Origin: a virus
Length of the DNA: 64,000 bases
Virus record (IMG/VR): IMGVR_UViG_3300031539_000009
Span: 1-64,000 of that record
Reading direction: 5' to 3' (one strand)
Positions 3,423-34,428 of this stretch are shown one piece after another; the stretch's first letter is position 1; each line of letters begins with the position of its first letter. A program made the translations under genes and the position numbers. The notes under the pieces are model-generated. The model searched no databases. It was not told the DNA's origin and saw only the letters and a list, made by a program, of their open reading frames with translations.

Positions 3423-3461
3423 TTTCGCATCCTCCATTTGTGTTTTCTCGATCATAATACA

Positions 3462-3572
3462 AGTATAGCTGATCTTGAATGGAAAGGCAAGAAAAAAATC
3501 GCCCAAGATCCAAACTTTTTTTACAAGATCAATAAAAACAAATAGTTAGAAGTGAACTTTTTTTTGGTGTAG
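3462..3572 (-). promoter_or_regulatory. P1 repeat copy B: sigma70-type promoter
   Basis: TTGCCT (3490-3485), 17 bases, TATACT (3467-3462) on the minus strand, with the same upstream A/T tracts and the same 104-base spacing to GGTGTAG as copies A, C and D. Copies A and B are nearly identical over more than 150 bases, including the ribosome site and first codons. Drives the gene ending at 3111. Confidence 0.85.
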
Positions 3573-3667
3573 CCCGACTTTTAAGATGTGCCAAAGGTAA
3601 AAAGGACCAAAACGTGGGTTTTGCTGTGTAGTTGGTGGGGTTTGTATAGATGGTTGATATTACACAA

Positions 3668-6208: not shown

Positions 6209-6748
6209 TCATTCTTTGATAACACAAATCCTTACCAGGGCAGTCCCTTCCCCGACCATTCCAAATTCCTTGGCAGCCAGGGTGGACAAATCAATGATCC
6301 GTGGGCCACCTTCCGACCGCCTATGTATGAACGGCCCACGGTCATTTATCCTGACCACAATACACTCCCCGATATCAGGACCGCCCCGGCCATCGATGCG
6401 ACACACATCCACCATGGTGTTGAATGGCAACGTCTGGTGTGCCGCCGTCATCTGCTTCCCCCAGTATTTTTCTCCATTCGCTGTCCTGTTTCCATAATAG
6501 CCTGGCCCGTACCATGAAGCATATCCCTCTTCACACTCCTGCTCCATCTCCGGTGCCATATCGCTGGGAATCGGGTCAAATGTCGGCTCAGATTCCGGCT
6601 CTTGGATTGCTTCCACCTCCACTTCCGCTTCCGTCACAACCACTTCACCCACTTGCGGTTGCTCAATCACTTCCGATTCCTGGGTGGCGCACATCTCGCA
6701 ACCTATCAAGGTCACGACCGCAAGCAACACCAAAATTGTCTTTTTCAT
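6209..6748 (-). CDS. RlpA-like lipoprotein with double-psi beta-barrel
   Basis: The N-terminus MKKTILVLLAVVTLIGC is a signal peptide with a lipobox Cys. A Glu/Pro-rich linker follows, then the RlpA-type domain: GYASWYGPGYYGNRTANGE, LPFNTMV, VRINDRGPF and IIDLSTLAAKEFGM. RlpA proteins cleave or bind peptidoglycan glycan strands in the Gram-negative periplasm. The ATG overlaps the stop of the dCMP deaminase gene as ATGA. A phage lipoprotein of this type might remodel the wall or block superinfection; neither role can be read from sequence. Confidence 0.85.
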   Translation of the reverse strand: MKKTILVLLAVVTLIGCEMCATQESEVIEQPQVGEVVVTEAEVEVEAIQEPESEPTFDPIPSDMAPEMEQECEEGYASWYGPGYYGNRTANGEKYWGKQMTAAHQTLPFNTMVDVCRIDGRGGPDIGECIVVRINDRGPFIHRRSEGGPRIIDLSTLAAKEFGMVGEGTALVRICVIKE

Positions 6749-7251
6749 TTTGCTTTCCATTCCATCACCCTTTCAGTGGTTCCAACAGCCCCACCTTGCT
6801 TGTTGGTTTCCCACAACCAGTTGCTTTCCTGTGCTATCCTTGGCGCAAGCCCGTCTGGATACTCGTTGGCAAACACCACCAACGTCACACCAGAATTAAT
6901 AATCATTTTCATGCAAATAGCACACGGACTATGCGTGACATACATTGTCCCGCCCTTTATTGACACACCGTGTTCCGCCGCCTGTAATATCGCATTTTGC
7001 TCTGCGTGGATTCCCCGGCACAATTCAGCCCTTTCCCCGCTGGGCACCTTCATCCTTTCCCTGAGACAACCGACCTCTTCACAGTGCGGTGCGCCTTTCG
7101 GTGCGCCATTATATCCAGTTGAGATGATTTTCCTGCCATGGACAATCACAGCCCCAACCATTCGTCCAGGCCTGGTGCAAGTGCCTCTGCTCGACACATC
7201 CCTGGCGATGTCCATGAAATATTGCTCCCAATCCGGTCTTGTTCTGCTCAT
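6745..7251 (-). CDS. dCMP deaminase
   Basis: The zinc-dependent deaminase motifs HAEQNAIL (82-89) and PCAICMKM (109-116) are intact. The region GYNGAPKGAPHCEEVGC resembles the regulatory part of phage dCMP deaminases. The enzyme turns dCMP into dUMP, the substrate of thymidylate synthase, so it should feed the ThyX-like enzyme at 24589. Start ATG at 7251 follows GGGGGC; the open frame upstream overlaps the 54-aa gene and is not used. Confidence 0.9.
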   Translation of the reverse strand: MSRTRPDWEQYFMDIARDVSSRGTCTRPGRMVGAVIVHGRKIISTGYNGAPKGAPHCEEVGCLRERMKVPSGERAELCRGIHAEQNAILQAAEHGVSIKGGTMYVTHSPCAICMKMIINSGVTLVVFANEYPDGLAPRIAQESNWLWETNKQGGAVGTTERVMEWKAK

Positions 7252-7253
7252 GA

Positions 7254-7418
7254 TTATGCCCCCAACATCAAAAGACCGGCTGCGGCTGCGCAACCAATGC
7301 CAACACGCCAATCCTTCCAGAAAATGAAGACACCGATGATCATGAAGTATATCCCACCCAGTGACTTCGCCCAATGGGTCACCTCAGACAAATACATGCT
7401 GACTTCCCAACAGTCCAT
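7254..7418 (-). CDS. Small membrane protein (54 aa)
   Basis: ATG at 7418 shares its A with the previous stop (TGATG) and follows GGAAGGTGCGTG. The 54 residues hold two hydrophobic stretches, GGIYFMIIGVFIFW (21-34) and VGIGCAAAAGLLMLGA at the C-terminus, separated by KDWR. It sits next to another membrane protein. A holin or inner-membrane accessory role is possible but not shown. Confidence 0.65.
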   Translation of the reverse strand: MDCWEVSMYLSEVTHWAKSLGGIYFMIIGVFIFWKDWRVGIGCAAAAGLLMLGA

Positions 7419-18452: not shown

Positions 18453-21400
18453 TTAAAAAGCCCGCCCGACATGGACCACGGCCTGTACGATATATGACTG
18501 TTTGTACTTGTCGCTTTTTTGTTTCTCAACTTGCATTATCACAATATCACCAGTGGTCAACTTATCTTGATTTGGCTCATACAAATCGTTGAAGCAGAGC
18601 AACGAACCTACTGCGCCGCCGCCCGGACCCGTCAAGGTCAGAAAAGCCATCATGCCATTCTTGGCCTCATGCCGCTTGCAATCGGTCACCATTCCATATA
18701 TCAACGCCTCAGCCCCGTGTGCTGTTTTGGCCAGCCGCTTGAACGGATTTGCCTTGACCAGTTTTTCACCTTTTTCCTTCCATTCCTCCACCAGCTGATC
18801 CCTTTCAGACGGTCCCAAATGTATGGCATCCCTGGCTTCCCTTTCCCCTTCCGACACCATCAAATCAACAGCAATGCGACTGTAACGCTCCAATGGGTCC
18901 TCAAAAAAGTACATCTCATATGGATTCAGGCCTGACCGCTCTGGCTTTCCTTCCGCCGTCGCCGTCGCAATCTTGTTCTCAACATCGTCCAGATCAGCCA
19001 TGAACTGTACACGCATCGTCTTGGACTTAGCAAACAACGACACCTTCATGGCCACGCACGTCCCGATTCCCTTTTCAATAATGGGCCTGAACTCATCGAA
19101 CTTATCAATGTCCAGCTTAATCCTCCAATGGACATGCGTCTCATCCTGGACGTTGAAATTGCTGTACCTCTTTTTCCAACCAATCCGGTCCTTTTCCGCC
19201 TGATCCGGCTCTGTGGTGTGGAAGTCACCGACCTGGTTGAAGCGGACATCGATGATTTGCCCTCTGATGAACGCATCGCCACCATCCCAAGGCAATTGAT
19301 CCAATGGGCTGAATTTGATGTGCGGACCGAACTGATCCAACAGGTCATCGTACAACTCAACCGGATGCTTGTCCATTGGAAGCGGGCACACATCTATCGA
19401 CATGCGCACCAGCATCTCTGGTGTGAAATCTTCTTCACTGGCCGACTGGGCCAGCACCTTATCAACGCTGTCATATTCGTGTTTGTCGCAGTACTTCAGA
19501 AGTGTCTCGACATTCTCCAAAAAAAACTTGACGTTGGGAATCAAACCGGTGAACGCCCCGGCCTTGACTAACATCTCAACGGACCGCTTGTTCACATATG
19601 ACTTTCCCACCCGCTTCCTGAAATTGCCGAATGAGGTGAACTCGCCATCCTTGTCCCGCTCCAACTCAATTTTTTCGATTCCCTTATTGGTCACCCACTT
19701 GATCTTATTCAAAGCAAATATGATCCGGCTCTTGCTATCTATCCTGAAGTGTTTGTTGCTGTGATTAATGTGGGGTTTGATAATCTCCACCCCCAGCCTT
19801 TCCGCTTCCTGTATAGTCCTGGCCGCTGTTTCTGAATCAGGCTCATGCTTGAGTAAAGCCCACATGAATTCCACAGGATAGTACACTTTGAGCCACATCT
19901 CCCAATAAGCAATGGCCGCATATGCGACTGCGTGCGATTTGTTAAAGCCATATGAACCAAAGAATACAATGGAGTCAAACAGCTTCGCCGCCTTTCCCTT
20001 TTCCATCCCGATCTTGGCCGCCCCCTCCATGAATCGGTCCTTTTCCTTGGTTATGACTTCCACGCCCGCCTTTTTGGCAATATCCTTCCTGAGTGAGTCA
20101 GCCGTTCCAGGCTCATATCCGCCGATCTGCTTAAAAATCTGAATGACCTGCTCCTGGTACACGATGACGCCATATGTCGGCCCGGTAATGGCATCATATG
20201 CTGGGTGTATTTTTTCCCACTTCGCCCCGTTTTTGCGCTCCACATACTTGGTCGCCAGACCGGACCTTGCTGTGCCCGGCCTGTTCAACGCATTCATGGC
20301 GGCCACGTCCTCAAATGAGTCAAATGTAATCGCTTCAGCCAGGTTGAACATCGATGTCGTGTCATACTGGAATATCCCAGCAAACTGTCTGTCTGTGAAC
20401 GATTTGAACACCTTGTCATCGTCCATCGGCATCCCTTCCAGATCAATTTCCTTCCCGTGTCGCCGCTTAATTTCACCCAGACAGTCCCCGACCACGGACA
20501 GGTTGCGCAACCCCAAAACATCCAACTTGAGCAACCCAAAATCTGTGCACCCCCAAAAATCCACTGCTGTACAGGGTGTGACCGCCTTGTCTGTTTTCTG
20601 TACCTCCATCGGAACAATGGTGGACAGTTTCCTGGGTCCAATCACAACCCCGGCTGCGTGGACCCCTTTCTGGCGTGCCTGTCCTTCCAAAGACATCACC
20701 AGTGGCAATATTTCAGGGTGTCTGGCGTTAAACTCCTGGCACACCTTAAACTCTTTGAATGAATCCTGAACGGTCTGGCTGGCCCGCTCATCGCCGGATG
20801 ACCTCTCAACAATGCTGTTGGTGACCTGCGCCACCTCATTCATGTGTATTTTATGGACCCTGGAGACATCCCTCAGACATTGCTTCCCTTTCAATGTTCC
20901 CACGGTCCCGATCAATGAAGTGTTTTCCGCCCCATACCTATCAATCAAATAATCAATGACTTCTTGGCGCCGAACGTCCTCAAAATCCATATCAATATCA
21001 GGCATGTCTATCCGGCCCGGACTCATGAACCTTTCAAACAACAATTCATGCTCCACCGGGTCAACCGATGTGATGCCCAACAAGAATGACACCAAACATC
21101 CCGCCGCCGAACCACGACCAGGACCAACTACCATTTCCTGTTTCCGCACCCACTTGTAAAGATCATGGACAATCAGGAAATATCGCTCAAACTTGCTTCC
21201 CAAAATTGCCCTCATTTCCATTGACACCCGCTCTGAATATATCCTGATGGCATCCTCATAGCTGATGTGACGATTCCTGGCCAGTCGCCTGGCACGCTCT
21301 GGCACGTTGCGCCACGCCCAGCCATCCTTACACAACTGAAATATGTATTGCTTTTCCGTCAATCCGGCTGGCACCTCAACGTCCGGCAGAATACAGGCGA

Positions 21401-22346
21401 ACTTGTCCAGCTTTAAGTCCACATTACAACGCTCAGATAGTTGGACGGAATTGTCCATCATCTCGAACATGTCACCCTTTTCTATCCACGGGTGATATCT
21501 GCGGACTGCCCCCATCATTTCCTTGGGAGTGCGAAACCAAAAATCATGGGTGTCAAATTTGAAACGATTGGGGTCATCTAAGGTCTGTTTGAATTGAAGG
21601 CACATCAGGACTTCTTGCTGCAACCAATCATCCGGCCTGAGATAATGAACATCATTGGTCAGGATGGGCTTGAACCCGAACTGCTTGGCCATTTTCAAGA
21701 TATACTGATTGGACTCATCCTGGCCATCTATTTCGTTGGGCATCACCTCGCCATACACTCGATCAGGCCCAAAAATATCCAACAACTTTTTCAGGTGCCT
21801 GGCCGCTTTCCGGTGATCGCCCTCCAGGAATGGCTTGCTGAGTATTCCGCCAACGCACGCCGTCCCGACCATTATGCCCTCTTGATGCTTTTCCAAAACT
21901 TCCCAATCAACTCTGGGCCTATTGCGATACAAGCCAGTGAGCCAACCTTCCGATGTCAGCTGGAATAGATTGCTCAATCCTGTTTCGTTCATGGCCCAAG
22001 CGCACAAATGCCATGTCTCGCTGATTCCCAATTCCCTTTCCCTGTCCTTCACCCACTTGCGCCGCTGCCCTGAAGGAATGTCTTGCGCCAACGCTTTTTC
22101 CTCTTCAGGCAACGCTGTCTTGCGCCGGTCGCCGGTGACATACAGTTCACAACCATAAACCGGCTTCACGCCCGCCCCTTTGGCTGCCTTGTGGAACCTG
22201 TAAACACCACGCATTGATCCGTGGTCGGTCATCGCCACCCTTTCGTGACCAGCTTCTTTGGCCCGCTCCATAAGATCGGTGACCCGGCCCACACCGTCTA
22301 ACAGGCTGAACTCGGTGTGTAGGTGGGCATGGAAGTGATATGGCAT
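18453..22346 (-). CDS. dnaE: DNA polymerase III alpha subunit (DnaE type)
   Basis: A 1297-residue family C polymerase. The N-terminal PHP domain keeps metal residues (HAHLHTEFSLLDG, AMTDHGS, YGCELYV, VHYLRPDD). The polymerase core has GPGRGSAAG near 410, MPDIDMDFED near 445 and KLDVLGL near 607, giving the three catalytic Asp. The fingers and helix-hairpin-helix follow, and an OB fold lies at about 1215-1290 (EALIYGMVTDCKRHEA). There is no exonuclease domain. Large contractile-tailed phages usually carry family A or B enzymes, so this is unusual. Start follows GAGGTAAAAA. Confidence 0.95.
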   Translation of the reverse strand: MPYHFHAHLHTEFSLLDGVGRVTDLMERAKEAGHERVAMTDHGSMRGVYRFHKAAKGAGVKPVYGCELYVTGDRRKTALPEEEKALAQDIPSGQRRKWVKDRERELGISETWHLCAWAMNETGLSNLFQLTSEGWLTGLYRNRPRVDWEVLEKHQEGIMVGTACVGGILSKPFLEGDHRKAARHLKKLLDIFGPDRVYGEVMPNEIDGQDESNQYILKMAKQFGFKPILTNDVHYLRPDDWLQQEVLMCLQFKQTLDDPNRFKFDTHDFWFRTPKEMMGAVRRYHPWIEKGDMFEMMDNSVQLSERCNVDLKLDKFACILPDVEVPAGLTEKQYIFQLCKDGWAWRNVPERARRLARNRHISYEDAIRIYSERVSMEMRAILGSKFERYFLIVHDLYKWVRKQEMVVGPGRGSAAGCLVSFLLGITSVDPVEHELLFERFMSPGRIDMPDIDMDFEDVRRQEVIDYLIDRYGAENTSLIGTVGTLKGKQCLRDVSRVHKIHMNEVAQVTNSIVERSSGDERASQTVQDSFKEFKVCQEFNARHPEILPLVMSLEGQARQKGVHAAGVVIGPRKLSTIVPMEVQKTDKAVTPCTAVDFWGCTDFGLLKLDVLGLRNLSVVGDCLGEIKRRHGKEIDLEGMPMDDDKVFKSFTDRQFAGIFQYDTTSMFNLAEAITFDSFEDVAAMNALNRPGTARSGLATKYVERKNGAKWEKIHPAYDAITGPTYGVIVYQEQVIQIFKQIGGYEPGTADSLRKDIAKKAGVEVITKEKDRFMEGAAKIGMEKGKAAKLFDSIVFFGSYGFNKSHAVAYAAIAYWEMWLKVYYPVEFMWALLKHEPDSETAARTIQEAERLGVEIIKPHINHSNKHFRIDSKSRIIFALNKIKWVTNKGIEKIELERDKDGEFTSFGNFRKRVGKSYVNKRSVEMLVKAGAFTGLIPNVKFFLENVETLLKYCDKHEYDSVDKVLAQSASEEDFTPEMLVRMSIDVCPLPMDKHPVELYDDLLDQFGPHIKFSPLDQLPWDGGDAFIRGQIIDVRFNQVGDFHTTEPDQAEKDRIGWKKRYSNFNVQDETHVHWRIKLDIDKFDEFRPIIEKGIGTCVAMKVSLFAKSKTMRVQFMADLDDVENKIATATAEGKPERSGLNPYEMYFFEDPLERYSRIAVDLMVSEGEREARDAIHLGPSERDQLVEEWKEKGEKLVKANPFKRLAKTAHGAEALIYGMVTDCKRHEAKNGMMAFLTLTGPGGGAVGSLLCFNDLYEPNQDKLTTGDIVIMQVEKQKSDKYKQSYIVQAVVHVGRAF

Positions 22347-22349
22347 TTT

Positions 22350-22832
22350 TTACCTCTCATCATTGGGCAATCTCGGAAAGTATTTCAAAACGTCCTTGAA
22401 CGCTTTCAGACTATGGCCAAACAACTTAACTGATTGCCCCAGTTTCTGGGCTGCTTGGACGTCAAATGGGGTGAACAACGCATCCCTGATTTCAGTGTCC
22501 GTGAACCCATTTTCTGCATGTTTGTTTATATGGAATCCGATGACCTCTTTCAACTCAGCTGGATACGCACCATGAAGAATGTATATCAAATAGTTGATCC
22601 CCTCAGCCGTCCTGGCCAGGCGTGATACCAGCTTCCCCTTGTGCGGACCGAACTTCAACCTGGCATCCGGCAGACCGCCATCGTGCGGCAGAATAACTGT
22701 GTGCTGGTCGTGAAGATCAGCCTCAACCTGCGTTGCTTCCTGTTCCGCTTCCGTCTCAATCGTGGGCGCAATTCCATCCTGGGAATTCCCGCCCCTTTGA
22801 AACATTTCCCTGATTTTGTCTTTTGTGCTCAT
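22350..22832 (-). CDS. Protein with ExoX-C/DUF3820-like segment (160 aa)
   Basis: The start MSTKDKIREMF at 22832 follows AAGAGGTTCATTG; a TTG start six codons earlier lacks spacing to its ribosome site. After an acidic N-terminus the segment LKFGPHKGKLVSRLARTAEG then NYLIYIL resembles the F-G-x-H-K-G-K motif found at the C-terminus of exonuclease X and in DUF3820 proteins. No catalytic exonuclease residues are seen. It is transcribed directly before dnaE, so a polymerase-linked role is possible. Confidence 0.6.
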   Translation of the reverse strand: MSTKDKIREMFQRGGNSQDGIAPTIETEAEQEATQVEADLHDQHTVILPHDGGLPDARLKFGPHKGKLVSRLARTAEGINYLIYILHGAYPAELKEVIGFHINKHAENGFTDTEIRDALFTPFDVQAAQKLGQSVKLFGHSLKAFKDVLKYFPRLPNDER

Positions 22833-23391
22833 CAATGAACCTCTTGGCAACCTCCAAAGTCACTGTTGGCCCATACCCGCTGGTGTCAATGCTCAACTTT
22901 GGAATTCGATTAACCATGCCACATGTCCGATCTAATTGGGTGGCCACATGCCACCAATCTTTTTCATCCTCCAACGGGAATTTTTCATGCTTGCAACGCT
23001 TCTTTGAATCCTCATAGCAACAGCCCAAATACAAGTACACGACCGGACCGCCGCCCTGCAAAAGACTTTCCTGCCAAACATCCATCCACGACTTTATCCG
23101 TGGATCATTTTCATCAAATTCACCGTACAACGAACCATAAGCAATCGCTGAGGGCAAGGACCGATCCAAAATCACATTCCTTCCAACCTGCCCCAGCACC
23201 TCTGCCACGAGAACATCCTCAATGTAACTATTCACAGGAATGCCAATTTGGCGCATCCCTTCCACAATCTCGTTGAAATTCCGTCCGGCCCGCCGGAATG
23301 ATCGGAACACAGGCCAACGTGTCCGCCTTTCCAGCTGCTCGCAAAGACTTGTCTTGCCCGATCCATTGATGCCCTCAGCAATTACTATCAT
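22756..23391 (-). CDS. P-loop (deoxy)nucleotide kinase, dTMP kinase-like
   Basis: The N-terminus MIVIAEGINGSGKTSLCEQL holds the P-loop. The later VILDRSLPSA matches the D-R-S motif of thymidylate and deoxynucleoside kinases. A lid-like region rich in Lys and Glu follows (SKKRCKHEKFPLEDEKDW). It probably phosphorylates dTMP or a modified dUMP made by the neighbouring ThyX-like enzyme. Its 3' end overlaps the next gene by 77 bases. Confidence 0.8.
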   Translation of the reverse strand: MIVIAEGINGSGKTSLCEQLERRTRWPVFRSFRRAGRNFNEIVEGMRQIGIPVNSYIEDVLVAEVLGQVGRNVILDRSLPSAIAYGSLYGEFDENDPRIKSWMDVWQESLLQGGGPVVYLYLGCCYEDSKKRCKHEKFPLEDEKDWWHVATQLDRTCGMVNRIPKLSIDTSGYGPTVTLEVAKRFIDEHKRQNQGNVSKGREFPGWNCAHD

Positions 23392-23404
23392 GGCCGCTTC
23401 CCCC

Positions 23405-24592
23405 TTATTTCAGGAAGCTGTTGTGGGTGTCCAGGATTGCTTTCAGGCCATCCTGCAACTCCAACGGTGATATGTTGAGCGGTGGGGTGATCTTGATCTG
23501 TCCCTTTGGTCTGAACGTGGCGATGAGCAGACCGAACTCCCTGGCCCGCTCTGCGAACTGATAACCATCATATCCAAAGCTGTCGAACCTTGGCAAAATT
23601 CCCCAGTGGACTCCCACGCCATCGATGGTCTCAATCCAATCCTGGGCTGTGAAAAAATCCTCCATGATTTTGCTTGTGTCTCGAATGTGCTGCAGCCCGC
23701 CGTCCTCAAGCCAATCCAATAAAATCAAATTGGCCTCACAAACAAACGGACCGCCGCCGAATGTGGTGTAATGCGTCCTGGGCGCCAACGTCCCGGAACA
23801 CTTGGGAGTGGCCAAACAAGCTGACATCGGATAACCCAACGCAATTCCTTTTCCCAAGGTCAAAACATCAGGTTGAATCCCAAAATATTCCCCGGCTGTG
23901 TACGTCCCGGTCCTGCCCATCCCCACCTGGACCTCATCGAATATGAGCAAGATGTCATGGGTGTCGCAGAATTCACGGACCTCTTTCAACAGCCCTTCCC
24001 GATGCAGACGAACCTCATTGTTGCCCGATATGGGCGACATGAAAATGGCAGCCACGTCACCAGGCACCAGGTCGCTCAATTCCTTGAAGAATGTGAACCC
24101 GGTTGGCATCGGTCCAAATCCTTCTTTGTGATATGGTGAATCCCTGGAATCCGTCGCCGCCAAAGACCAACCGGTGCGACCTGCAAACTGCCCCTCAATC
24201 GAAGCAATTATGCACTTGTCATTCCCTTTGTCGTGCTGATATTTGCGGGCCAGCTTGATGGCTGTCTCGTTGGCTTCCGTCCCGGAATTAGCAAAAAACA
24301 CCTTGTCCATTCCCGTGACTCGGCACAACCTTTCTGCGCACTCCCATCTGGTAGGGTGCGGCAGCATGTCTGCCAGCTGGTGCGGCTTTCCGGCTTCAAG
24401 GAAATTGGTCAGCCGATTTATGACCATCTGATTGCCATACCCCAACGATATTGTCCCGACATCAGCGCACATGTCAATGAATTCATGGCCATCCTCTGTG
24501 TATAGTTTGGCCCCTTCCCCGCCACCGATCACCAATGGCAACCGATTTATGGTGGGCATCAGGTGCCCGTCCATTTGCCTTTCATCCATCAT
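23405..24592 (-). CDS. Class III PLP-dependent aminotransferase
   Basis: All fold-type I class III marks are present: FFANSGTEANETAIKLAR (about 100-117), IFDEVQVGMGRTG (Asp 219) and TLGKGIALGYPMS with the PLP-binding Lys near 248. At 395 residues the length suits ArgD, ornithine and glutamate-semialdehyde enzymes. Such enzymes normally move amino groups in amino-acid or polyamine metabolism, which is odd in a phage. Start MMDERQ overlaps the ThyX stop (ATGA). It may act on a free amine or on a modified nucleotide. Confidence 0.88.
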   Translation of the reverse strand: MMDERQMDGHLMPTINRLPLVIGGGEGAKLYTEDGHEFIDMCADVGTISLGYGNQMVINRLTNFLEAGKPHQLADMLPHPTRWECAERLCRVTGMDKVFFANSGTEANETAIKLARKYQHDKGNDKCIIASIEGQFAGRTGWSLAATDSRDSPYHKEGFGPMPTGFTFFKELSDLVPGDVAAIFMSPISGNNEVRLHREGLLKEVREFCDTHDILLIFDEVQVGMGRTGTYTAGEYFGIQPDVLTLGKGIALGYPMSACLATPKCSGTLAPRTHYTTFGGGPFVCEANLILLDWLEDGGLQHIRDTSKIMEDFFTAQDWIETIDGVGVHWGILPRFDSFGYDGYQFAERAREFGLLIATFRPKGQIKITPPLNISPLELQDGLKAILDTHNSFLK

Positions 24593-25536
24593 CTCACTTT
24601 CACCCCCGTCCAAGGATCACGCCCCCAATATTCACGATATTCACCCACACGCTGCTTGCCCATGGGGTTGTAATCCCGCTCCACTTCAGCCGGATCAAGA
24701 CCGGCCACCAATTTGGCGTACATCGGGCAAACTGGCAAAGCATCCTCACCCGTCACACGCCTTTCATTTTCGTGCTCGAATTTGCAGCCGCCGAACTCTT
24801 CATTGCAGATGCACGGTGGCGTGGCCATTTCTGAGAATATCGGGTGAACCTTGGTGGCGCACTCTTTGATCATCCCCCGGATAACCGGCCCCCACAACCC
24901 CAGCTGAAGTATCCAACACGACCTTTTGCCCACGATATGGAGCATGCTGTTGACGTTCATCGTCCAACTGATCCGGTGCTGCGCCCCCAACGGAATCAGG
25001 TCACGGGCATCTTCCATAGGCACGCCCGCTTCCACCAGCCTGTTGTACATATCCTGAATCCTCTTCATGGTGTCGCCATATTCACGATACAGGTCAGGCC
25101 TGGTCTTGCCTAACTGGCGGATGGTGTTGGCCTTGCGATACATTCCCTGGTCTGCGAACGTCCCCATGTTCTGAATCCGCATCGACTGGCTCCAATAGCT
25201 GGAACTGACCAAATCAGGAATGAGGTCAACTCCGATGCGGTCATCATGCTTGTGCCCGACTCGGTGACGGACCGCTTGCTCACGCCAACTGACGCTCACG
25301 CCCTCCATCATGAAGTTGAAATAAATGGACTCACTGACCGGAATGTTCTGGGCCACGACCTTCCTGAACAATTCCAGCAACCCATCGTCACCCATGGGGT
25401 CATCCGGGTCACGCTTCCCGGCCTTCACTTCATCCACCGTCAACAGCGGATTTTCAGACTTGCTTGCCCACCAGATTATGTACAGTGTCTCCAGCGGGTC
25501 ATTTGTGTTACTGATCAATCTCACCCTTGGTTCCAT
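24589..25536 (-). CDS. Divergent ThyX-like flavin-dependent thymidylate synthase
   Basis: The core WREQAVRHR (84-92) matches the ThyX R-H-R motif, and ARDLIPLGAQHRISWTMNVN followed by a helix matches the second half. Yet the usual Ser 7 residues after R-H-R is absent: VGHKHDD is followed by Arg, and a Ser cluster (SSSYWSQSMR) comes about 12 residues late. The H-x-S...E-H region reads PVSESIYFNF. A C-terminal extension has CIC...C...C. It may methylate dUMP or make a related C5-substituted dUMP. Start follows GGAGGTATCAAA. Confidence 0.8.
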   Translation of the reverse strand: MEPRVRLISNTNDPLETLYIIWWASKSENPLLTVDEVKAGKRDPDDPMGDDGLLELFRKVVAQNIPVSESIYFNFMMEGVSVSWREQAVRHRVGHKHDDRIGVDLIPDLVSSSYWSQSMRIQNMGTFADQGMYRKANTIRQLGKTRPDLYREYGDTMKRIQDMYNRLVEAGVPMEDARDLIPLGAQHRISWTMNVNSMLHIVGKRSCWILQLGLWGPVIRGMIKECATKVHPIFSEMATPPCICNEEFGGCKFEHENERRVTGEDALPVCPMYAKLVAGLDPAEVERDYNPMGKQRVGEYREYWGRDPWTGVKVR

Positions 25537-25557
25537 TTTGATACCTCCATTTGATTA

Positions 25558-26451
25558 TTACAGGCCAAGCCTGTTCAAGACTTCGCCCCAGTTTGTGACC
25601 GGCTCCAAACAATCGTGCGGTGCTAAATTGTCTGAAATCGGACTCTTGAAATACAACACCTTTATTCCGTCCCCGGCCAAGTCCAACGCATGCTTTGGGT
25701 CATCCTCGATGAATCCCACGACCTTAGCAGGGTGGATGTTTTCCCAGACTGCCCCGGACTTGTCCCTGGACCACAGCACCTGATCCGGCTTGATCCCATG
25801 TTTGTCCAACCAGAAGTGGGTGTCTGTGGCAATCCTGCGCACTTTCCAATATGGCCTGGCCGTTATCACCACCAACTTGTTTCCTGCCTCTTTGATGGCT
25901 CGGAGTGCTCCAACCGCCCCGTCAATCAGCCCTGTTTCTCTGAATCGCCCCTCTTGATAAAATGCCATCACAGCCACTTCCCGATCTGCCTGGGACAACT
26001 CTTTGTATCCTTTTCCGGCCCGTCCCAAACAAAACATGTCAAATTGGGCAAAAAAATCGGCCACCACTCCATCCAGGTCAGTGACCACAACCGGTGTCGA
26101 TTCCTTCAACTCCATCAATTCAGCTTGCCAACGCTGATCGACCAGGTTTGACTTCTCAAAAAATGCCATCAAGAATTGCTTGTGGGTGATCCCTATGGCC
26201 TGGGCAATCGCCATGGTGTATTTGAACACGTCTGCGCACTGGTCCAAGGCATTCCCATCGATGTCCGGGCACGCCTTCAATTGATGGTGTTTCGGTATCA
26301 ATTCCCGCTTCAATTCAGTGACCTCTTCAAACAGGCCCAAAAGCAGGTCGGATAGCAGCCTGTGCCGCTCTGCTTCCGTCATGGAATCCGGGTTGATCCC
26401 TAACTTTTTTTGTTGCTCCGCTTGCCTTGCCCAAACTTTACCAAATTCCAT
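25558..26451 (-). CDS. MazG-like NTP pyrophosphatase fused to HAD 5'-nucleotidase
   Basis: The start MEFGKVWARQ at 26451 follows GGAAGGTGGTGTG. The first half has an all-alpha NTP pyrophosphatase pattern: LLLGLFEEVTELKREL then DQCADVFKYTM. The second half is a HAD phosphatase: VVVTDLDGVVADFF (motif I), LVVITARP (II) and GFIEDDP (IV), as in 5'(3')-deoxyribonucleotidases. The fusion could remove an unwanted dNTP in two steps, for example dUTP or dTTP to the nucleoside. That would favour use of a modified nucleotide. Confidence 0.82.
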   Translation of the reverse strand: MEFGKVWARQAEQQKKLGINPDSMTEAERHRLLSDLLLGLFEEVTELKRELIPKHHQLKACPDIDGNALDQCADVFKYTMAIAQAIGITHKQFLMAFFEKSNLVDQRWQAELMELKESTPVVVTDLDGVVADFFAQFDMFCLGRAGKGYKELSQADREVAVMAFYQEGRFRETGLIDGAVGALRAIKEAGNKLVVITARPYWKVRRIATDTHFWLDKHGIKPDQVLWSRDKSGAVWENIHPAKVVGFIEDDPKHALDLAGDGIKVLYFKSPISDNLAPHDCLEPVTNWGEVLNRLGL

Positions 26452-27394
26452 CACACCACCTTCCGACCTTTTCTGCCACAACGTCTGTTGTTTCCCTTGA
26501 GTCCCAAGCAGCATATCTGCCAATGGGAATCACGCCTTCAGGATATTCCAGCCCCTCATCGCAACCGATGATATGACCCTTGATCCTTCCCTGTTTACTT
26601 ATTCTCATTCCAATGCCAAGGACATGAATCACATCTTTGGCAACCGCTTCCGACTGGTCACTGTCGTCAACCCCATGAGGTTGTGGCACTTCAGCCCAAA
26701 ACGATCTTTGTTGCAAGTTGTAGCTGATCCTGGACACCACTTTCTGCGCTGGTGTGTAAATGTAATCCGGCCCGGCCCACTTCTGATTCCCATTCCACGT
26801 CACCTCATACAAGGCAATATTCCCGTTGCGCAGATCAGGAAAGTCAAGACCGCCGATGGCGGCAAAAACGCTGGCGTGAGCCGATGTAAATAACATGTCA
26901 TAATTGAAATTGCCAGATTTTGTTTTTATGGCATGCTCTGTGTGATCGACTTCCACAACCATGTCGGTACACAACCTGACCCCTTCAAGTGCTGCCTTGC
27001 TCAATTCTGATGGATTTATAACCATAGACTTGGAATGGTCTTTGCCAGGATCATTCATACACTTGGCAGTCCAGCCATCTAATGTCCCCCTGGTCTTGGC
27101 ATAGTGCATCCGTTGAATCTTCTCAGCACGGTCCCGGACCCGGCCCATCATTTCTGGATATGGCAATATTTTCCCGGCCCAATATATTCCGCCGTGAATT
27201 TCCTTGAAATCAACATTGACTCCGTGATGGCACAAAGTTGCCAGGAAGTGCCTGGACCAATGAAAGTATTTCAGCCCGCCTTTGAAAAAATCGCCGGTGT
27301 CAGGACCGATGGCCGTGACCTGGTGTCCGAACCTCTTCAAAACCAATGATGCCACCTGGCCACTCACACCCGTCCCGATTATTACGCAATTCAT
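26438..27394 (-). CDS. FAD-dependent oxidoreductase or lyase
   Basis: The N-terminus MNCVIIGTGVSGQVASLVLK is a Rossmann dinucleotide-binding motif. The C-terminal EGVIPIGRYAAWDS is the second FAD contact usual in this fold. The middle has no recognised substrate domain. At 318 residues it is compact. It is first in the operon behind P2 copy 3, followed by MazG-HAD, ThyX-like, PLP and kinase genes. A flavin enzyme beside a PLP enzyme recalls pathways for hypermodified thymidine, but the substrate is unknown. Confidence 0.8.
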   Translation of the reverse strand: MNCVIIGTGVSGQVASLVLKRFGHQVTAIGPDTGDFFKGGLKYFHWSRHFLATLCHHGVNVDFKEIHGGIYWAGKILPYPEMMGRVRDRAEKIQRMHYAKTRGTLDGWTAKCMNDPGKDHSKSMVINPSELSKAALEGVRLCTDMVVEVDHTEHAIKTKSGNFNYDMLFTSAHASVFAAIGGLDFPDLRNGNIALYEVTWNGNQKWAGPDYIYTPAQKVVSRISYNLQQRSFWAEVPQPHGVDDSDQSEAVAKDVIHVLGIGMRISKQGRIKGHIIGCDEGLEYPEGVIPIGRYAAWDSRETTDVVAEKVGRWCDGIW

Positions 27395-27427
27395 GTGTGC
27401 TTTCCTTGCATTCTATTTTGCATGTAT

Positions 27428-27488
27428 GAATTCAACCTTTTCAAACCCTTATGCACTAACAACTGCATTCATTTTTTGCGCATTTTTG
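27428..27488 (-). promoter_or_regulatory. P2 repeat copy 3
   Basis: The 61-base core is nearly identical to copy 2 (CAAAAATGCGCAAAAAATGA ... GTGCATAAGGGTTTGAAAA) and lies 33 bases before the FAD gene. TGCA-centred words recur across it and its flanks (AATGCATTC, GAATGCAG, CATGCAAAA, GAATGCA), resembling an array of binding sites. Confidence 0.65.
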
Positions 27489-28712: not shown

Positions 28713-29411
28713 TTATTTGTTAAGCTGGATCACATCGTTGACCACCCCCCTGATTTTTATCAAAGACCAATTCACCTGATTCACAGTTAGCCCAAGCAAA
28801 TTGGCTATTTCGACATTGCTGGTAAAATCCGGGTCAGGCGGTGTCACCTTGGCCATGAACACTTTACCTTCCCAGCCCCCAAGCCTGTAAAGCACTTGCA
28901 ATCTGAGCAGGGCTGTGATTTGATCTTCTTTGCTCCACTCATATGCCTGATCCGGGTTTGGCGTGGCATTCTCAATATACTCGCACAACACAGGGTCATC
29001 CAACATAGAACAATATGAACCTCTTGACCCCCTGACGTCACTTGTGGTGTCCGCCTTTTCAAGAATCACCTGCTCATTGTATGATGGAAGCTGCGGCCAC
29101 GCCTTGTATTCCCACTCGCCGCTTTCATCATTTTGAAGCCATCCGTGTAACATCCGCTTTTGGGCCATTTCCTTCCCCAGCACTCCCTGGAGATGTCTCC
29201 AAATCACATTCCACGTGTACGTGGACACCTGGGACTTTTCCGCATCATACCTGCTGAGCGACTTCCATGCCGCAATCAGTCCCTCTTGTACCAAATCTTC
29301 AAAACCCAATATGGCTCCGACTCCACGATGATTCCATGCGTGTTTCCTTGCGCCCCGTCTTATGACCCTGTAATGCTCTTCAAACAACGCATCTGCTTCC
29401 ACTTTTGCCAT
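28713..29411 (-). CDS. Sigma70-family RNA polymerase sigma factor
   Basis: The start MAKVEADALF at 29411 lies 8 bases after GGAGG. Region 2 is visible at about 36-80 (GFEDLVQEGLIAAW, RYDAEKSQVSTYTWNVIWRH), which binds the core enzyme and the -10 element. A region-4-like HTH ends the protein (SNVEIANLLGLTVNQVNWSL). At 232 residues it is the size of alternative or phage sigma factors. It may direct host polymerase to the P2 elements or to late genes; neither is shown. Confidence 0.88.
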   Translation of the reverse strand: MAKVEADALFEEHYRVIRRGARKHAWNHRGVGAILGFEDLVQEGLIAAWKSLSRYDAEKSQVSTYTWNVIWRHLQGVLGKEMAQKRMLHGWLQNDESGEWEYKAWPQLPSYNEQVILEKADTTSDVRGSRGSYCSMLDDPVLCEYIENATPNPDQAYEWSKEDQITALLRLQVLYRLGGWEGKVFMAKVTPPDPDFTSNVEIANLLGLTVNQVNWSLIKIRGVVNDVIQLNK

Positions 29412-29430
29412 ATTCATTTCCTCCATTTGA

Positions 29431-30132
29431 TTATTTGTTATTTTGGTGGCCGCTGGCGTAATTGTCGGCAGCTTCCCGTATTTTTGCAAACATGGAATCT
29501 GTTATGGTCGGCCAGTGCTTCCCGGCCGCAACTCTCAAACTTCCGATGTCAACAAACTCGCCACGCTTCTGGGCCATTTGGCATTCCTTTACCATCTCCC
29601 CAAACACCTTAGATGGTCGGTGCGCTTGGCAAGCAAAATAGAATTCGCACAACCCAGAATCGCACCCCGGACCGCCGCCCACGTCAGATGCTTCCTGTGA
29701 GAACTCGCCAAAACACTTTGGCTTCATGTCTTGATCCTTGACGTGTTCCGCCCACCCCAAAGCAGCCTGGAACACCTTGGTGATGTCTGGTGAATCCTTG
29801 AACATATCCGCCTTGTCCACCAGCCACATTAGATAGTCAGGCCGGTGAAGGGCCAACCACTTCACGGTCGCAAATTGATGCTTCCCAAACTTGAATTCCA
29901 TGTCGTGAATCGACACCGTTTGGGCCTGGACATTCACATCAGTTTTTCCACCTTCCCGGAATTTGAATTTGCGCTTCCACCTGACCAATGTCGTCTGGGC
30001 GACAACACCGATGATTACACCGGTCAAAACTGCCATCGTGGCAGACATGGTCCCCTCAAATATTCCTTCCCGGACCTTTCCGCCCGCTTCTTGCTGTTGT
30101 AGCATTTTCCTGATGTCATCTATTGAAGGCAT
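29431..30132 (-). CDS. Membrane-anchored protein with ExoX-C-like segment (233 aa)
   Basis: A membrane segment at about 28-48 (TMSATMAVLTGVIIGVVAQT) is followed by Lys/Arg residues. Then comes MEFKFGKHQFATVKWLAL with PDYLMWLV, like the F-G-K-H motif of exonuclease X C-termini and DUF3820. The C-terminal half has a Cys group (CFGEF...GCDSGLCEFYFAC) that may bind metal. It recalls the 160-aa protein at 22350. Start follows GAGGGGGAATTGAT. Confidence 0.65.
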   Translation of the reverse strand: MPSIDDIRKMLQQQEAGGKVREGIFEGTMSATMAVLTGVIIGVVAQTTLVRWKRKFKFREGGKTDVNVQAQTVSIHDMEFKFGKHQFATVKWLALHRPDYLMWLVDKADMFKDSPDITKVFQAALGWAEHVKDQDMKPKCFGEFSQEASDVGGGPGCDSGLCEFYFACQAHRPSKVFGEMVKECQMAQKRGEFVDIGSLRVAAGKHWPTITDSMFAKIREAADNYASGHQNNK

Positions 30133-30597: not shown

Positions 30598-32634
30598 TTA
30601 GGCCATGAGGTATTTTATGATCATCTTGAAAAGCTTGGCCGGAAGATCACCCACGCTGTTGACCACGTCCCAGTCAGGGTAAAAATTCCGCACGTGATCG
30701 GTCTGAATTCCCAGCCCATAAACCTCGATGCCCGCATCAGATATTTCCTTGACCACGTCCCTGGTGGCCTGATACTGCTTGTAATTGTCCCCAATGCTGA
30801 CGTTGGGCTTTCCGTCGCTGAGGACTATCATGATCTTGCGGTGCTGGGGTTGAGCCGCCAGCCGCTTTGCCGTGTGCATGATCGCTTCTGAATCAACGTT
30901 GCAGCCGTTGGTGTCCATCATCGCAATCCTGGTCTTCACAGTGGCATTGAACTTTTCCCCGAACGCCTTGTGGGTGTAGTGGGTGATCCCAACAAATCTG
31001 TTGTAATATTTCATTTCCTCTTTGGGCTCATCCCACGCACTATATCCGGCCCGATAAGTGTGATGTCCGCAAATCTCGAAAGGAATGTTCAGGCCATTCA
31101 ACGCTTCCGCAATCGCTATCATCCCGACCTTGGCGTGTCCAATCCTGTTATCACGACCGCTCATGGACCCGCTCTGGTCAACCAGGATGCTCACGGCCAC
31201 GTCCAACTTCTGTCCTGGCATCGTCTTGGTGAACACTCTTTTGTTTCCGGTCTTGGTGCTGTAAAGTGTGGAAGGATCAATTTGACCATTTTCCTGGTCG
31301 CCCACCCGGACCGCCTGAGCCTTGACCTTGAGCAGCGTGGTGAGTCTGGCCTTGAGTGCTCCGGTGGCCTTTCCCGCTTCCGTTTTGAGTCTGCTGTAGT
31401 GGTCCAGGGCTGCGCTGTCTGATGAGGTGTGGGTGCGAACGTCCCACTTGTCCCGGTCCAAAACCTTGGGTGAGGGGATGTGATCGTTGCTGCGCTTGGC
31501 CAACTCCATCGCCTTGGTCTTCAGTTCATCTTTGATCTTCTGCTTGAGATCGGTCTCAGTGGGCTTGGGCTGCTCTTTTTCCGCTTGCTCCAAGATGTCC
31601 AGTGCTTCCTGAGTGGCCTGGGGCATCCCATTCCCGCTGGCACCGCTCTCATCGCTGTTGGGATTTGAGGTGAAATCTTCATCGGTCCCCTTCCCCTTGC
31701 CGCTTCCGTCCTGGTCGCCGCCCATATCATCGCCATCGTGCTCTGCGGACAATCCGGCATCAACACCCTGGTCGCCGTCCTGCTCCTGCTCGGTGTCCTG
31801 CTCGGTGTCCTGGTCGCCGTCCTGGTCGCCGTCCTGGTCCTGGTCGCCGTCCTGGTCCGCTTCCCCTTTGCCGTCCTGGTCCTGGTCGCCGTCCTGGTCC
31901 TGGTCGCCGTCCTGGTCCTGGTCGCCGTCCTGGCCTTGTTCGTCTTGCTCGGTGTTTCCCTGTTCCTTGTCGCCCTGCTCCTGGTCGCCGCTTCCCTGAT
32001 TCTGCCCCAACTCATCCTTGGCATCACTCAGTCTGCCCAAGATGTCAGTGACCAGCTGGTCAACGTCCGCCGGTGCCTCAACGGTTTTGGCCCGCTCTAT
32101 TTCCGGCTGAATTTTGTCCAAGATCAGGTTGTATGACTCAGGAAGCCAGGAAGTGGATCTGCCGGTGGCCCGGAAGGAAAGCCCAATGGCGATGATGTAG
32201 TTGGGGTTGGCCTGTCCTGGATTGGCGCTTAATTCTTTGACCAAATCGCTGGTGAGCCTATCATTCATGGTGTCCAGGTTGGTGGCCACTCCCGGATAAC
32301 GTGCGCTGAGGCTGCGCTCTATTCTGGTGTCCTCGATGGCGTTGAAAAACACTTTGTATTTGGGGGTGGCCGCTCTCATGTAGTCTAATGGGGTGCGCTG
32401 TCCCTGGGCTTTCCAAATTTCCTCTTGCTCGATGTGGCCCCACTCGTGATCCAACAGACCTTCCATGACCGCCTGATCCGCCCCTTTGAACTTGTCTGCG
32501 TTGGCAGGAAGGTAGATGGTGGCCCCGTCAGTGGCGCAATTCAGCGTCTGGGTGTTGACGTGGACCGTGGCCCGCTTGCTGAACGTCCGGGCGATTTTTT
32601 CCCACTTGCTTTCCATGGTTCTTTTTGCTTTCAT
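30598..32634 (-). CDS. CobT-like VWA-domain protein
   Basis: The start MKAKRTMESKW at 32634 follows AAGGGGACACGAAA and lies after the P1 -10 box. Near residue 65 is HEWGHIEQE, an HExxH zinc-peptidase-like motif. The middle (about 230-330) is a simple QDGDQD acidic repeat, as in cobaltochelatase CobT. From about 470 is a VWA domain with MIDAS motif LVDQSGSMSG and a later LSDGKPN. With a CobS-like ATPase next door this is a MoxR-VWA pair; in phages its role is unknown, and cobalamin synthesis is unlikely. Confidence 0.88.
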   Translation of the reverse strand: MKAKRTMESKWEKIARTFSKRATVHVNTQTLNCATDGATIYLPANADKFKGADQAVMEGLLDHEWGHIEQEEIWKAQGQRTPLDYMRAATPKYKVFFNAIEDTRIERSLSARYPGVATNLDTMNDRLTSDLVKELSANPGQANPNYIIAIGLSFRATGRSTSWLPESYNLILDKIQPEIERAKTVEAPADVDQLVTDILGRLSDAKDELGQNQGSGDQEQGDKEQGNTEQDEQGQDGDQDQDGDQDQDGDQDQDGKGEADQDGDQDQDGDQDGDQDTEQDTEQEQDGDQGVDAGLSAEHDGDDMGGDQDGSGKGKGTDEDFTSNPNSDESGASGNGMPQATQEALDILEQAEKEQPKPTETDLKQKIKDELKTKAMELAKRSNDHIPSPKVLDRDKWDVRTHTSSDSAALDHYSRLKTEAGKATGALKARLTTLLKVKAQAVRVGDQENGQIDPSTLYSTKTGNKRVFTKTMPGQKLDVAVSILVDQSGSMSGRDNRIGHAKVGMIAIAEALNGLNIPFEICGHHTYRAGYSAWDEPKEEMKYYNRFVGITHYTHKAFGEKFNATVKTRIAMMDTNGCNVDSEAIMHTAKRLAAQPQHRKIMIVLSDGKPNVSIGDNYKQYQATRDVVKEISDAGIEVYGLGIQTDHVRNFYPDWDVVNSVGDLPAKLFKMIIKYLMA

Positions 32635-32674
32635 TTTCGTGTCCCCTTTTGTGTTTTTTCCGGCCATGTTTAAT

Positions 32675-32785
32675 ATCATAGCTGATCTTGAATGAAAAGG
32701 CAAGAAAAAAAACACCCAAGGTCCAAACTTTTTTTACAATATCCATAAATCCAACAAGTTACAAGACAACTTTTTTTTGGTGTAG
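32675..32785 (-). promoter_or_regulatory. P1 repeat copy C: sigma70-type promoter
   Basis: TTGCCT (32703-32698), 17 bases, TATGAT (32680-32675) on the minus strand. A-tracts and CTACACCAAAAAAAAGT are conserved with the same 104-base spacing. The 257-base gap between CobS- and CobT-like genes holds only this element and a short GGGTGC/GCACCC hairpin across the CobS stop. Confidence 0.85.
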
Positions 32786-32891
32786 CCCGGTCTTTTAATA
32801 GGCCAAAACGTCGAAAGGACCAAAAACCACTTAACTTGTTGATTTTACTTAACATTTTCAATTCCCCATAAAATCAAGGACTTAGGGTGCT

Positions 32892-34070
32892 TTAGCACCC
32901 CATGATCCTCTGGATAACTCCATCCACGAACATCGCATCATCCTTGGACATCCGGTCCAAGATGGTGATCCTGGCGGCCAGGCGGATGTTGTTCAGCTTG
33001 ATAGCTTTCCCGGCCCACTCGATCAGTCTGCGGGTTGAGCAGGTGCAATAACACTGCTCTTGTTCAAATGCTCCCCGAATGGCCTGGGCAACTTCAACCA
33101 TCTTCTGGGCCATGCTATGATCGGCCCCGGTCTTGGACTTGACAATTTTGATCTCAATGGACTTTTCAACATAATCGGCCTTGAGGACCACTCCGAACCT
33201 GTCCAGATATGCTTCATTGAGGACGTTGGTGCCGGTGTACAGGCCGGTGTCGTCGCCCCTTCCGATGGTGTTTGCGGTGGCCACAACCCGGAAATTGGGG
33301 TGTGGTTCTATGACTTCACCGTTGTTCCCGGTGAGAGTGAGCTTGCCGCCACGCTCCAGGACCGCCTGAAGGACAAAAAGGATATGGGGTTGAGCAGCGT
33401 CCATCTCGTCAAGCAACAGCCAATATCCTTTGCGCATCGCTTCCGGCAGCACGCCATCCTTCCAGACCACAACGCTGTTTCCATTCTCATCCACGTCCAA
33501 CACTTTTTCGCCGGTGAAATCAGCTGCCCGGATGTCGCCGTTGAGATTGACTCTGCGGACCGGCTGGTTGAGAATGCTGGCCAACTCCAGGAAAGCAGCC
33601 GACTTGCCGCAGCCCGTGGGTCCATGAACCAGCGTGTTGTCGCCCTCTTCAATTCCAACCGCCAAGACCGTGAAAACATCCATGTCAAGCTGATAATTTT
33701 CATCGTGGTCCGGGATGTATTTTTTGTCCGCTTCTGTTACATCCTTTCTGACGTACAGGCTGGCCGGTCCGATCTGAAGTGGTGCGTCTGGGTTGAATCC
33801 GTTGTGATCGCCGTTGGCGCCGTCCTGAACTTCTGGCTGCTGAATAAGGTCGGTGGCGACCTTGGTGCGCTTGACACCCTTTTGGGCCTGGCTGACCCGC
33901 TGGCTTGCGTATTCTGATATGGTTGGTTCACCCGGATGCCTGAGGTTGTACTCGGCAACGTCGATTCCGTGGGCTGATTTAAGATGTACGCTGAGTTGGT
34001 GGTAATAACGTCCGCACTCTTTGCACTCAATTTTCACATTACCATTCTTGTCGATTTGTTTGAAGCTCAT
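32892..34070 (-). CDS. CobS-like MoxR-family AAA+ ATPase with zinc finger
   Basis: The start MSFKQIDKNG at 34070 follows GGGAAGCGAA. An N-terminal finger reads CKECGRYYHQLSVHLKSAH (C-x2-C...H-x4-H), resembling Ros/MucR fingers. The AAA+ core has Walker A GPTGCGKS near 150, Walker B LLLDEMDAA near 223, and ANTIGRGDDTGLYTG typical of CobS/MoxR. These ATPases work with VWA partners to remodel proteins or insert metal. The partner is the next gene downstream, with its own P1 copy. The finger suggests targeting to DNA. Confidence 0.88.
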   Translation of the reverse strand: MSFKQIDKNGNVKIECKECGRYYHQLSVHLKSAHGIDVAEYNLRHPGEPTISEYASQRVSQAQKGVKRTKVATDLIQQPEVQDGANGDHNGFNPDAPLQIGPASLYVRKDVTEADKKYIPDHDENYQLDMDVFTVLAVGIEEGDNTLVHGPTGCGKSAAFLELASILNQPVRRVNLNGDIRAADFTGEKVLDVDENGNSVVVWKDGVLPEAMRKGYWLLLDEMDAAQPHILFVLQAVLERGGKLTLTGNNGEVIEPHPNFRVVATANTIGRGDDTGLYTGTNVLNEAYLDRFGVVLKADYVEKSIEIKIVKSKTGADHSMAQKMVEVAQAIRGAFEQEQCYCTCSTRRLIEWAGKAIKLNNIRLAARITILDRMSKDDAMFVDGVIQRIMGC

Positions 34071-34119
34071 TTCGCTTCCCACTTTTGATTTGTATTTGGT
34101 TTTTTCGACCATGTATACA

Positions 34120-34230
34120 AGTATAGCTGATCTTGAATGGAAAGGCAAGAAAAAAATCGCCCAAGGACCAAACTTTTTTTACAAGATCCATAAAAACAAT
34201 CATTTACTGGGCAACTTTTTTTTGGTGTAG
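34120..34230 (-). promoter_or_regulatory. P1 repeat copy D: sigma70-type promoter
   Basis: TTGCCT (34148-34143), 17 bases, TATACT (34125-34120) on the minus strand, with the same tract layout as copies A-C. Homology with copy A continues to about 34300. It drives the CobS-like gene. Confidence 0.85.
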
Positions 34231-34428
34231 ACCGGCTTTTCAAAAAGGCAAAAGGTAAAAAGGGCCAAAATTGGCTTCCGGTGTGGATAGGTAGTGGGGT
34301 TTGTTTTTTGTGTCTAAACAGAATATTGCCGAATGGCTTGAAATTAAATACTTTTTTGTGAAAATTTGGTGTCATTATCACCGATTCCTTTTGATTATTG
34401 TCGGCCCGATTATGCGGACCAATTTTAC

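Follow-up and report, generated by a model that had tools for sequence, protein, structure and literature searches.

The window analysed here comprises bases 1-64000 of an 82,156-base IMG/VR virus record (IMGVR_UViG_3300031539_000009), and its main feature is an operon on the minus strand, at 22756-27394, that encodes a flavoprotein, a MazG-nucleotidase fusion, a variant of the thymidylate synthase ThyX, a pyridoxal phosphate (PLP) aminotransferase and a kinase. The host of this uncultivated virus is bacterial, and the operon adjoins the phage's own DNA polymerase gene. On the basis of gene families and predicted folds, we propose that the operon is a free-nucleotide pathway operating before DNA synthesis and making a C5-modified thymidine analogue usable by the phage polymerase, a reading to which we assign a probability of about 0.55. 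The module is likely to serve a modified pyrimidine nucleotide, and the C5-modified deoxyuridylate that it would make is probably aminated; that the product is exactly 5-aminomethyl-deoxyuridine (5-aminomethyl-dU) is doubtful. The family evidence is good, and from it we infer the chemistry.

A C5-modified thymidine fits best because the catalytic Tyr91 of ThyX is lost and one phage with the module carries a second, ordinary ThyX, and because the same ThyX lies elsewhere beside a radical SAM gene or a second ThyX, while flavoprotein and aminotransferase persist as a pair. The initial annotation of this DNA had likewise suggested that the set exceeds the supply of thymidine triphosphate (dTTP) and serves a C5-modified, possibly amine-bearing thymidine. 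This is still the best fit, with the modified base itself a suggestion of the gene content. From the sequences we infer that the gene set may be a variant of phage thymidine modification.

The operon and its enzymes

The five genes are as follows.

26438..27394, minus strand: oxidoreductase of the flavin adenine dinucleotide (FAD) type, predicted fold closest to UDP-galactopyranose mutase (UGM); from fold and family alignments
25558..26451, minus strand: putative fusion of a MazG-like nucleoside triphosphate pyrophosphohydrolase (weakly matched half) and an NT5C-type 5'(3')-deoxyribonucleotidase
24589..25536, minus strand: variant ThyX with a Thy1 fold, a loop insert at residues 93-110, Ile121 at the Tyr91 position and a Cys-rich C-terminal tail
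23405..24589, minus strand: class III PLP aminotransferase, ArgD-like; start taken at ATG 24589, with TTG 24613 a possible alternative
22756..23391, minus strand: P-loop kinase resembling thymidine monophosphate (dTMP) kinase, with motifs common to six relatives

With the chosen starts, the intergenic distances in this order are -14, 21, -1 and 13 nt, followed by -77 nt from the kinase to a small open reading frame (ORF) at 22350 and 3 nt from there to a DNA polymerase III (PolIII) alpha gene. The ORFs, small gaps and family matches bear out the coupling of the five genes that had been noted initially. Each of them is under purifying selection (dN/dS of 0.11-0.27 against a 27-kb relative). Since this holds for all five, and since 23 other contigs carry the set, the operon is more than a chance arrangement.

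The variant ThyX is recognized by its Thy1 domain (PF02511, 4.5e-19, 69.4 bits against a gathering threshold of 24.8) and misses the NCBI thyX equivalog cut-off (TIGR02170, 56 bits against 87.9). Its AlphaFold model (mean predicted local distance difference test score, pLDDT, 85.3) aligns to ThyX structures with Z up to 14.6 over 203 residues at a root-mean-square deviation (rmsd) of 2.9. The inserted loop has low model confidence and is absent from one relative (L060) and from the ThyX of Listeria phage LIS04; the tail carries conserved cysteines in the pattern PPC...C...PPC. Tyr91, which follows the SxR motif, has been called strictly conserved in the Thermotoga maritima enzyme and proposed as the general acid (PMC8316439). 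It is replaced by Ile, Val or Leu in all 25 variant ThyX proteins, 22 of them read by pattern and three (L021, L049, L060) from the alignment. The T. maritima residues Ser88, Arg90, Arg147 and Arg174 correspond in the alignment to S118, R120, R178 and R205 and are invariant in the 25; the numbering of the PDB chain allows for a presumed 12-residue tag. LIS04 ThyX, outside the 25, has Thr at the Tyr91 position. Because the intermediates of the ThyX reaction have been trapped by acid as hydroxymethyl-dUMP (dUMP, deoxyuridine monophosphate; PMC4913046), it makes chemical sense for a ThyX to stop early, and the sequence of the window's variant suggests that it may itself do so.

Domain and family scans of the flavoprotein gave no family above threshold, only a weak Rossmann match below the cut-off. 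No match was found among 50,697 GenBank phage records, and one scan of a genome collection for bacterial relatives returned 595 pattern stretches, none of which was confirmed. Its structure model (pLDDT 85.9) places it in the UGM fold: UGMs occupy the top 17 structure-comparison rows (Z 24-26, 310-317 residues, rmsd 3.0-3.4), with a best alignment at Z 26.1 over 317 residues and rmsd 3.1. After these come PPO and PF1083 near Z 22, bacterial UGM near 20 and amine oxidases near 18. Foldseek's own top ranks are PF1083, renalase and nicotine or amino-acid oxidases, such match lists leaving room for families outside them. Judging from the model, the protein is a UGM/amine-oxidase-type flavoenzyme, nearest to an enzyme that acts on a pyrimidine nucleotide sugar.

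The lead of the UGMs might point to a sugar or amino-sugar nucleotide pathway, in which the flavoprotein and the aminotransferase, together with an accessory epimerase, would produce a nucleotide sugar for the decoration of DNA or virion. An NAD-dependent epimerase does lie between ThyX and the aminotransferase in one related contig (L006). However, this is the only inspected locus with an epimerase, PPO and amine oxidases share the fold (Z 18-22), and no glycosyltransferase or sugar nucleotidyltransferase appears among the 30 window proteins, of 73 picked ORFs, that were scanned with Pfam. A sugar pathway would also leave the kinase, the fusion and ThyX unexplained, and we consider it highly improbable.

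The aminotransferase belongs to the class III family (PF00202, 8e-67, 226 bits against 30.5). Its residues K247, D218 and T276, which we take to be the PLP residues, are invariant in 16 of 16 proteins. It is ArgD-like, yet far under the NCBI argD cut-off (267 bits against 410). GenBank aminotransferase matches labelled as phage (66 records, all below 60% identity) were not used; among the 40 matches listed, identities are 24-34%, and several bear chromosomal gene names (astC, bioA). One module phage has two different copies of the aminotransferase gene, one on either side of the kinase (L049:5087-7912).

The C-terminal half of the fusion is, by its sequence, a 5'(3')-deoxyribonucleotidase (NT5C, PF06941, 1.4e-7; profile against PDB, 1.6e-6). 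The N-terminal half is more weakly supported as MazG-like, by profile matches to PDB entries 2q73 (5e-4) and 5ie9 (3e-3). The kinase matches PHROG 761 (3e-19) and is related to dTMP and deoxynucleoside kinases, while scoring under the curated dTMP kinase cut-offs (TIGR00041, 30.9 against 83.25; PF02223, 25.2 against 27). Six relatives have in common the motifs (E/D)GxNxxGK and DRxxxSxxxY, the latter presumably TMPK-like.

Recurrence of the gene set and its variants

Two single-protein scans of IMG/VR gave one and seven loci, and tblastn located all five genes close to PolIII at each locus. Profile scans extended this to 14 flavoprotein, 31 ThyX and 41 aminotransferase loci. All five genes are present in 23 IMG/VR contigs besides the window, corresponding to about 19 phages, since four pairs of contigs each appear to represent one phage assembled twice. 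A PolIII match lies downstream in 21 of the 23; in the other two (L046 and L047, one phage twice), no PolIII match was seen before the contig end, which is at most about 1.3 kb from the kinase. The whole set accompanies 13 of the 14 flavoprotein genes, and the remaining locus (L020) is cut by the contig edge. The ThyX loci divide into 18 with the set (in one of these, L058, the flavoprotein is visible only with a second profile), one cut off (L044) and 12 without it, several of these 12 being on short contigs with the gene close to the end. The set is complete at 23 of the aminotransferase loci and cut off at one (L086), and two (L085 and L087) have it minus the ThyX variant. The other 15 (L088-L097, L100-L104) carry a distant aminotransferase with no other module family in the fetched region and were rejected as members.

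The order of the genes varies within the block, the aminotransferase preceding ThyX in 7 of the 23 contigs, and the five stay together. They belong to the core of one phage lineage. Compared with the window copy, the L002 flavoprotein is 65% identical, and the remaining 14 proteins of the alignment fall at 16-29%. A Rossmann-type protein resembling methyltransferases by eye accompanies the module in L009, L022, L023 and L037, and lies farther upstream in L058; a family scan of two of these five gave nothing above the cut-off. No published description of the five-gene set was found among the matches listed from open-licence PMC papers.

These data bear on whether the operon could combine ordinary dTTP supply with auxiliary metabolism. 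ThyX and the kinase would then lead to dTTP, the fusion would recycle nucleotides of the host, whose amino-acid or polyamine metabolism would be served by the aminotransferase and the flavoprotein. ThyX, the kinase and a deoxycytidine monophosphate (dCMP) deaminase do suffice for a dTTP route, the aminotransferase is ArgD-like, and a single ThyX is present in 20 of the 21 complete module records. In contrast, the replacement of Tyr91 in every variant speaks against this reading, and one module phage (G007) has an extra ThyX with the ordinary STRY motif, beside a gene resembling dCMP deaminase. Further points against it are that one scan confirmed no bacterial relative of the flavoprotein, that the whole set accompanies it at 13 of its 14 loci, and that the block persists at flavoprotein identities of 16-29%. 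Ordinary dTTP supply with auxiliary metabolism appears unlikely as the function of the set.

Phages whose polymerase looks PolA-like by eye carry the same ThyX variant next to a radical SAM gene. The neighbouring radical SAM is matched by profile in L050, L052, L057 and L061, is confirmed by Pfam, together with SPASM, in L050 and L057, and was recognized by eye in L053 and L056. In the L060 record, the radical SAM matches lie far from its ThyX, and the 14 module records searched hold one match (G032), also far from the module. A YfbR-like nucleotidase and a nucleoside deoxyribosyltransferase are Pfam-confirmed in L057 and seen by eye in others, and L052, L057, L059 and L061 have a second, divergent ThyX. 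The group with adjacent radical SAM genes looks like another thymidine-modification cluster.

In L085 and L087, a short-chain dehydrogenase (SDR) takes the place of the ThyX variant.

L085:6325-6978: SDR replacing the ThyX variant
L087:5355-6134: SDR replacing the ThyX variant

It adjoins weak flavoprotein matches (5e-5 and 6e-6), the fusion, the aminotransferase and the kinase. Behind PolIII, L085 also encodes a short ThyX in which Phe follows the SxR motif. A 280-residue protein at 6150-6992 of L087 resembles acyltransferases by eye. One could tentatively imagine an aminoalkyl-uracil, such as 5-aminomethyl-dU, made wholly as a free nucleotide by exchangeable cores: ThyX with radical SAM, ThyX with flavoprotein and aminotransferase, or SDR with flavoprotein and aminotransferase.

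Comparison with known pathways and proposed mechanism

PLP and flavin enzymes occur in pathways that hypermodify thymidine within DNA, and the initial annotation had drawn its analogy from such a route. For phages M6, ViI and phi W-14, the proposed route begins with 5-hydroxymethyl-dU and completes the hypermodification inside DNA (PMC6449724), and phi W-14 is described as having a dTTPase and a hydroxymethyl-dUMP synthase (PMC5977210). By analogy, 5-hydroxymethyl-dU in the window phage's DNA would be phosphorylated and substituted after replication, with DNA as the substrate of the PLP and FAD enzymes. Pseudomonas phage M6, which contains 5-(2-aminoethyl)dU, resembles the window in having a thymidylate-synthase-type enzyme, a nucleotidase, a PLP enzyme and the phage polymerase close by; its YfbR-like nucleotidase adjoins the annotated thymidylate synthase, near the DNA polymerase gene. 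However, its synthase is of the ThyA type, it has the 5-hydroxymethyl-dU DNA kinase HMUDK and the amino acid:DNA transferase ADDT, and the PLP enzyme beside ADDT belongs to the PALP family, unlike PF00202 of the window.

None of these M6 partners was found in the records of the module searched. ThyA (PF00303) was absent from 13 and from 7 partial records, which carry the module or its SDR variant (M6 control, 5.5e-20), HMUDK (PF18723) from 14 partial module records (1.4e-57) and ADDT (PF18724) from 14 (2.3e-48). A smaller search for the DNA kinase in 8 records was also empty and had no control match. The initial failure to recognize a 5-hydroxymethyluridine DNA kinase thus holds after an aimed search; that annotation had recognized no aGPT-type pyrophosphorylase either, and for this enzyme no search was made. 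The analogy to the in-DNA route is not supported. These absences are provisional because the records are partial. A post-replicative route of the M6 type is quite improbable for this operon.

Bacillus phage SP-15, which contains 5-(4,5-dihydroxypentyl)uracil (DHPU), offers another comparison. It is described as having two ThyX proteins and as making DHPU before DNA synthesis (PMC5977210). SP-15 and the SP-15-like LIS04 resemble the window in their divergent, long ThyX. LIS04 ThyX is the top GenBank phage match among the matches listed (25.8% over 87%), and LIS04_124 aligns along its length at 29%. SP-15 gp130 was rejected as a direct homologue (pairwise E 7e-4; missed by the profile over SP-15 ORFs). 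Just upstream of the gp130 ThyX lies an SDR, gp129, and an SDR is also what replaces ThyX in L085 and L087; the match of gp129 to the L085 SDR is weak (6e-7 pairwise), as expected of any two SDRs. SP-15 differs in giving no flavoprotein or aminotransferase match, and its kinase match is at gp10 (1.3e-9). Its gp114 (L013:12784-13521) is annotated as a 7-cyano-7-deazaguanine synthase, besides the modified uracil.

The Z-cluster of cyanophage S-2L replaces a base at the nucleotide level with the help of a MazG-like enzyme and removal of the competing nucleotide (PMC8342488). The window's operon would share with it nucleotide-level replacement, a MazG-like pyrophosphohydrolase and removal of a competing deoxynucleoside triphosphate. 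The S-2L base is a purine, 2-aminoadenine, and the modifying enzymes of that cluster (PurZ, DatZ, MazZ) are not shared with the operon. In aminoglycoside synthesis, a dehydrogenase and then an aminotransferase aminate C6' (KanQ/KanB), and AprQ, an FAD-dependent enzyme, works on that position too (PMC5461906). The oxidize-then-aminate logic is what we propose for flavoprotein and aminotransferase, with the difference that KanQ/KanB act on a sugar. For the operon enzyme, the family also differs from that of KanQ-type dehydrogenases.

We propose the following pathway. The dCMP deaminase, judging from its family, would supply dUMP. The variant ThyX would transfer the folate methylene via flavin to C5 of dUMP and, without Tyr91, would not finish the reaction as dTMP; it would release a C5-functionalized dUMP, most simply 5-hydroxymethyl-dUMP. 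The UGM-like flavoprotein would oxidize the side chain to an aldehyde, which the class III aminotransferase would convert to an amine, the simplest product being 5-aminomethyl-dUMP. The TMPK-like kinase would phosphorylate the modified nucleotide, and the fusion may break dTTP or another competing nucleotide down to its nucleoside.

Several observations weigh against a pathway of this kind. The wider region is syntenic in the lineage (AAA, vWA, sigma, PolIII and RecA genes), so the joint conservation of the five genes is partly plain descent. The second ThyX is found in only 1 of the 21 complete module records, most records being partial. Since L085 and L087 do without the ThyX variant, and the 18-kb L087 record contains no ThyX, the variant is not indispensable to the other genes. 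The nearest fold of the flavoprotein is a mutase, not an alcohol oxidase, and a small amine donor or a sugar could instead be the substrate of the aminotransferase. Finally, SP-15 gp130 is only remotely similar to the variant ThyX.

If the proposed nucleotide-level pathway is correct, building on a catalytically altered ThyX would be a new chemical logic and a third way to alter thymine, besides dUMP hydroxymethylation by ThyA-type enzymes and decoration within DNA. Some phage proteins annotated as ThyX would then possibly not be thymidylate synthases. The operon would offer enzymologists five expressible proteins, and it would become testable how phages such as SP-15, with two ThyX genes, assemble an alkyl chain on uracil ahead of DNA synthesis.

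Neighbouring features of the window

Gene picking in the window was confined to the minus strand, and all genes with an assignable family lie there; a tRNA search of the window found none. The features that accompany the operon are listed below.

27391..27488, minus strand: putative promoter-like unit, copy 3 of a four-copy repeat, with the other copies near 9478, 12140 and 38045
22350..22832, minus strand: small conserved protein between kinase and PolIII, without a family above the cut-off
18453..22346, minus strand: DNA polymerase III alpha-type gene, named by eye
6745..7374, minus strand: dCMP deaminase (PF00383, 3.3e-26), possible source of dUMP

The copy of a promoter-like repeat that had been placed before the operon (called P2 copy 3) is confirmed as a 122-nt repeat unit. 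Its four copies in the window have 66-75% identity to the reference copy, and the one at 27367-27488 lies directly upstream of the FAD gene, reaching slightly into it. A sigma-70-like factor (region 2, PF04542) is encoded at 28713-29489, two genes upstream of the operon, and could be the reader of these repeated units. A 199-nt repeat, also in four copies (1789-1987, 3414-3612, 32627-32825 and 34072-34270; 71-92% identity to the reference), is perhaps another promoter-like unit before genes.

The PolIII alpha proteins of L004, L007 and L009 are about 1,570-1,590 residues long, compared with 1,297 in the window, and an in-frame insertion near residue 790-797, probably an intein, interrupts their tblastn alignments. 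A pair consisting of an AAA (MoxR/CbbQ-like) ATPase and a CobT-like vWA protein occupies 30598-34148 of the window and is found in many loci of the lineage.

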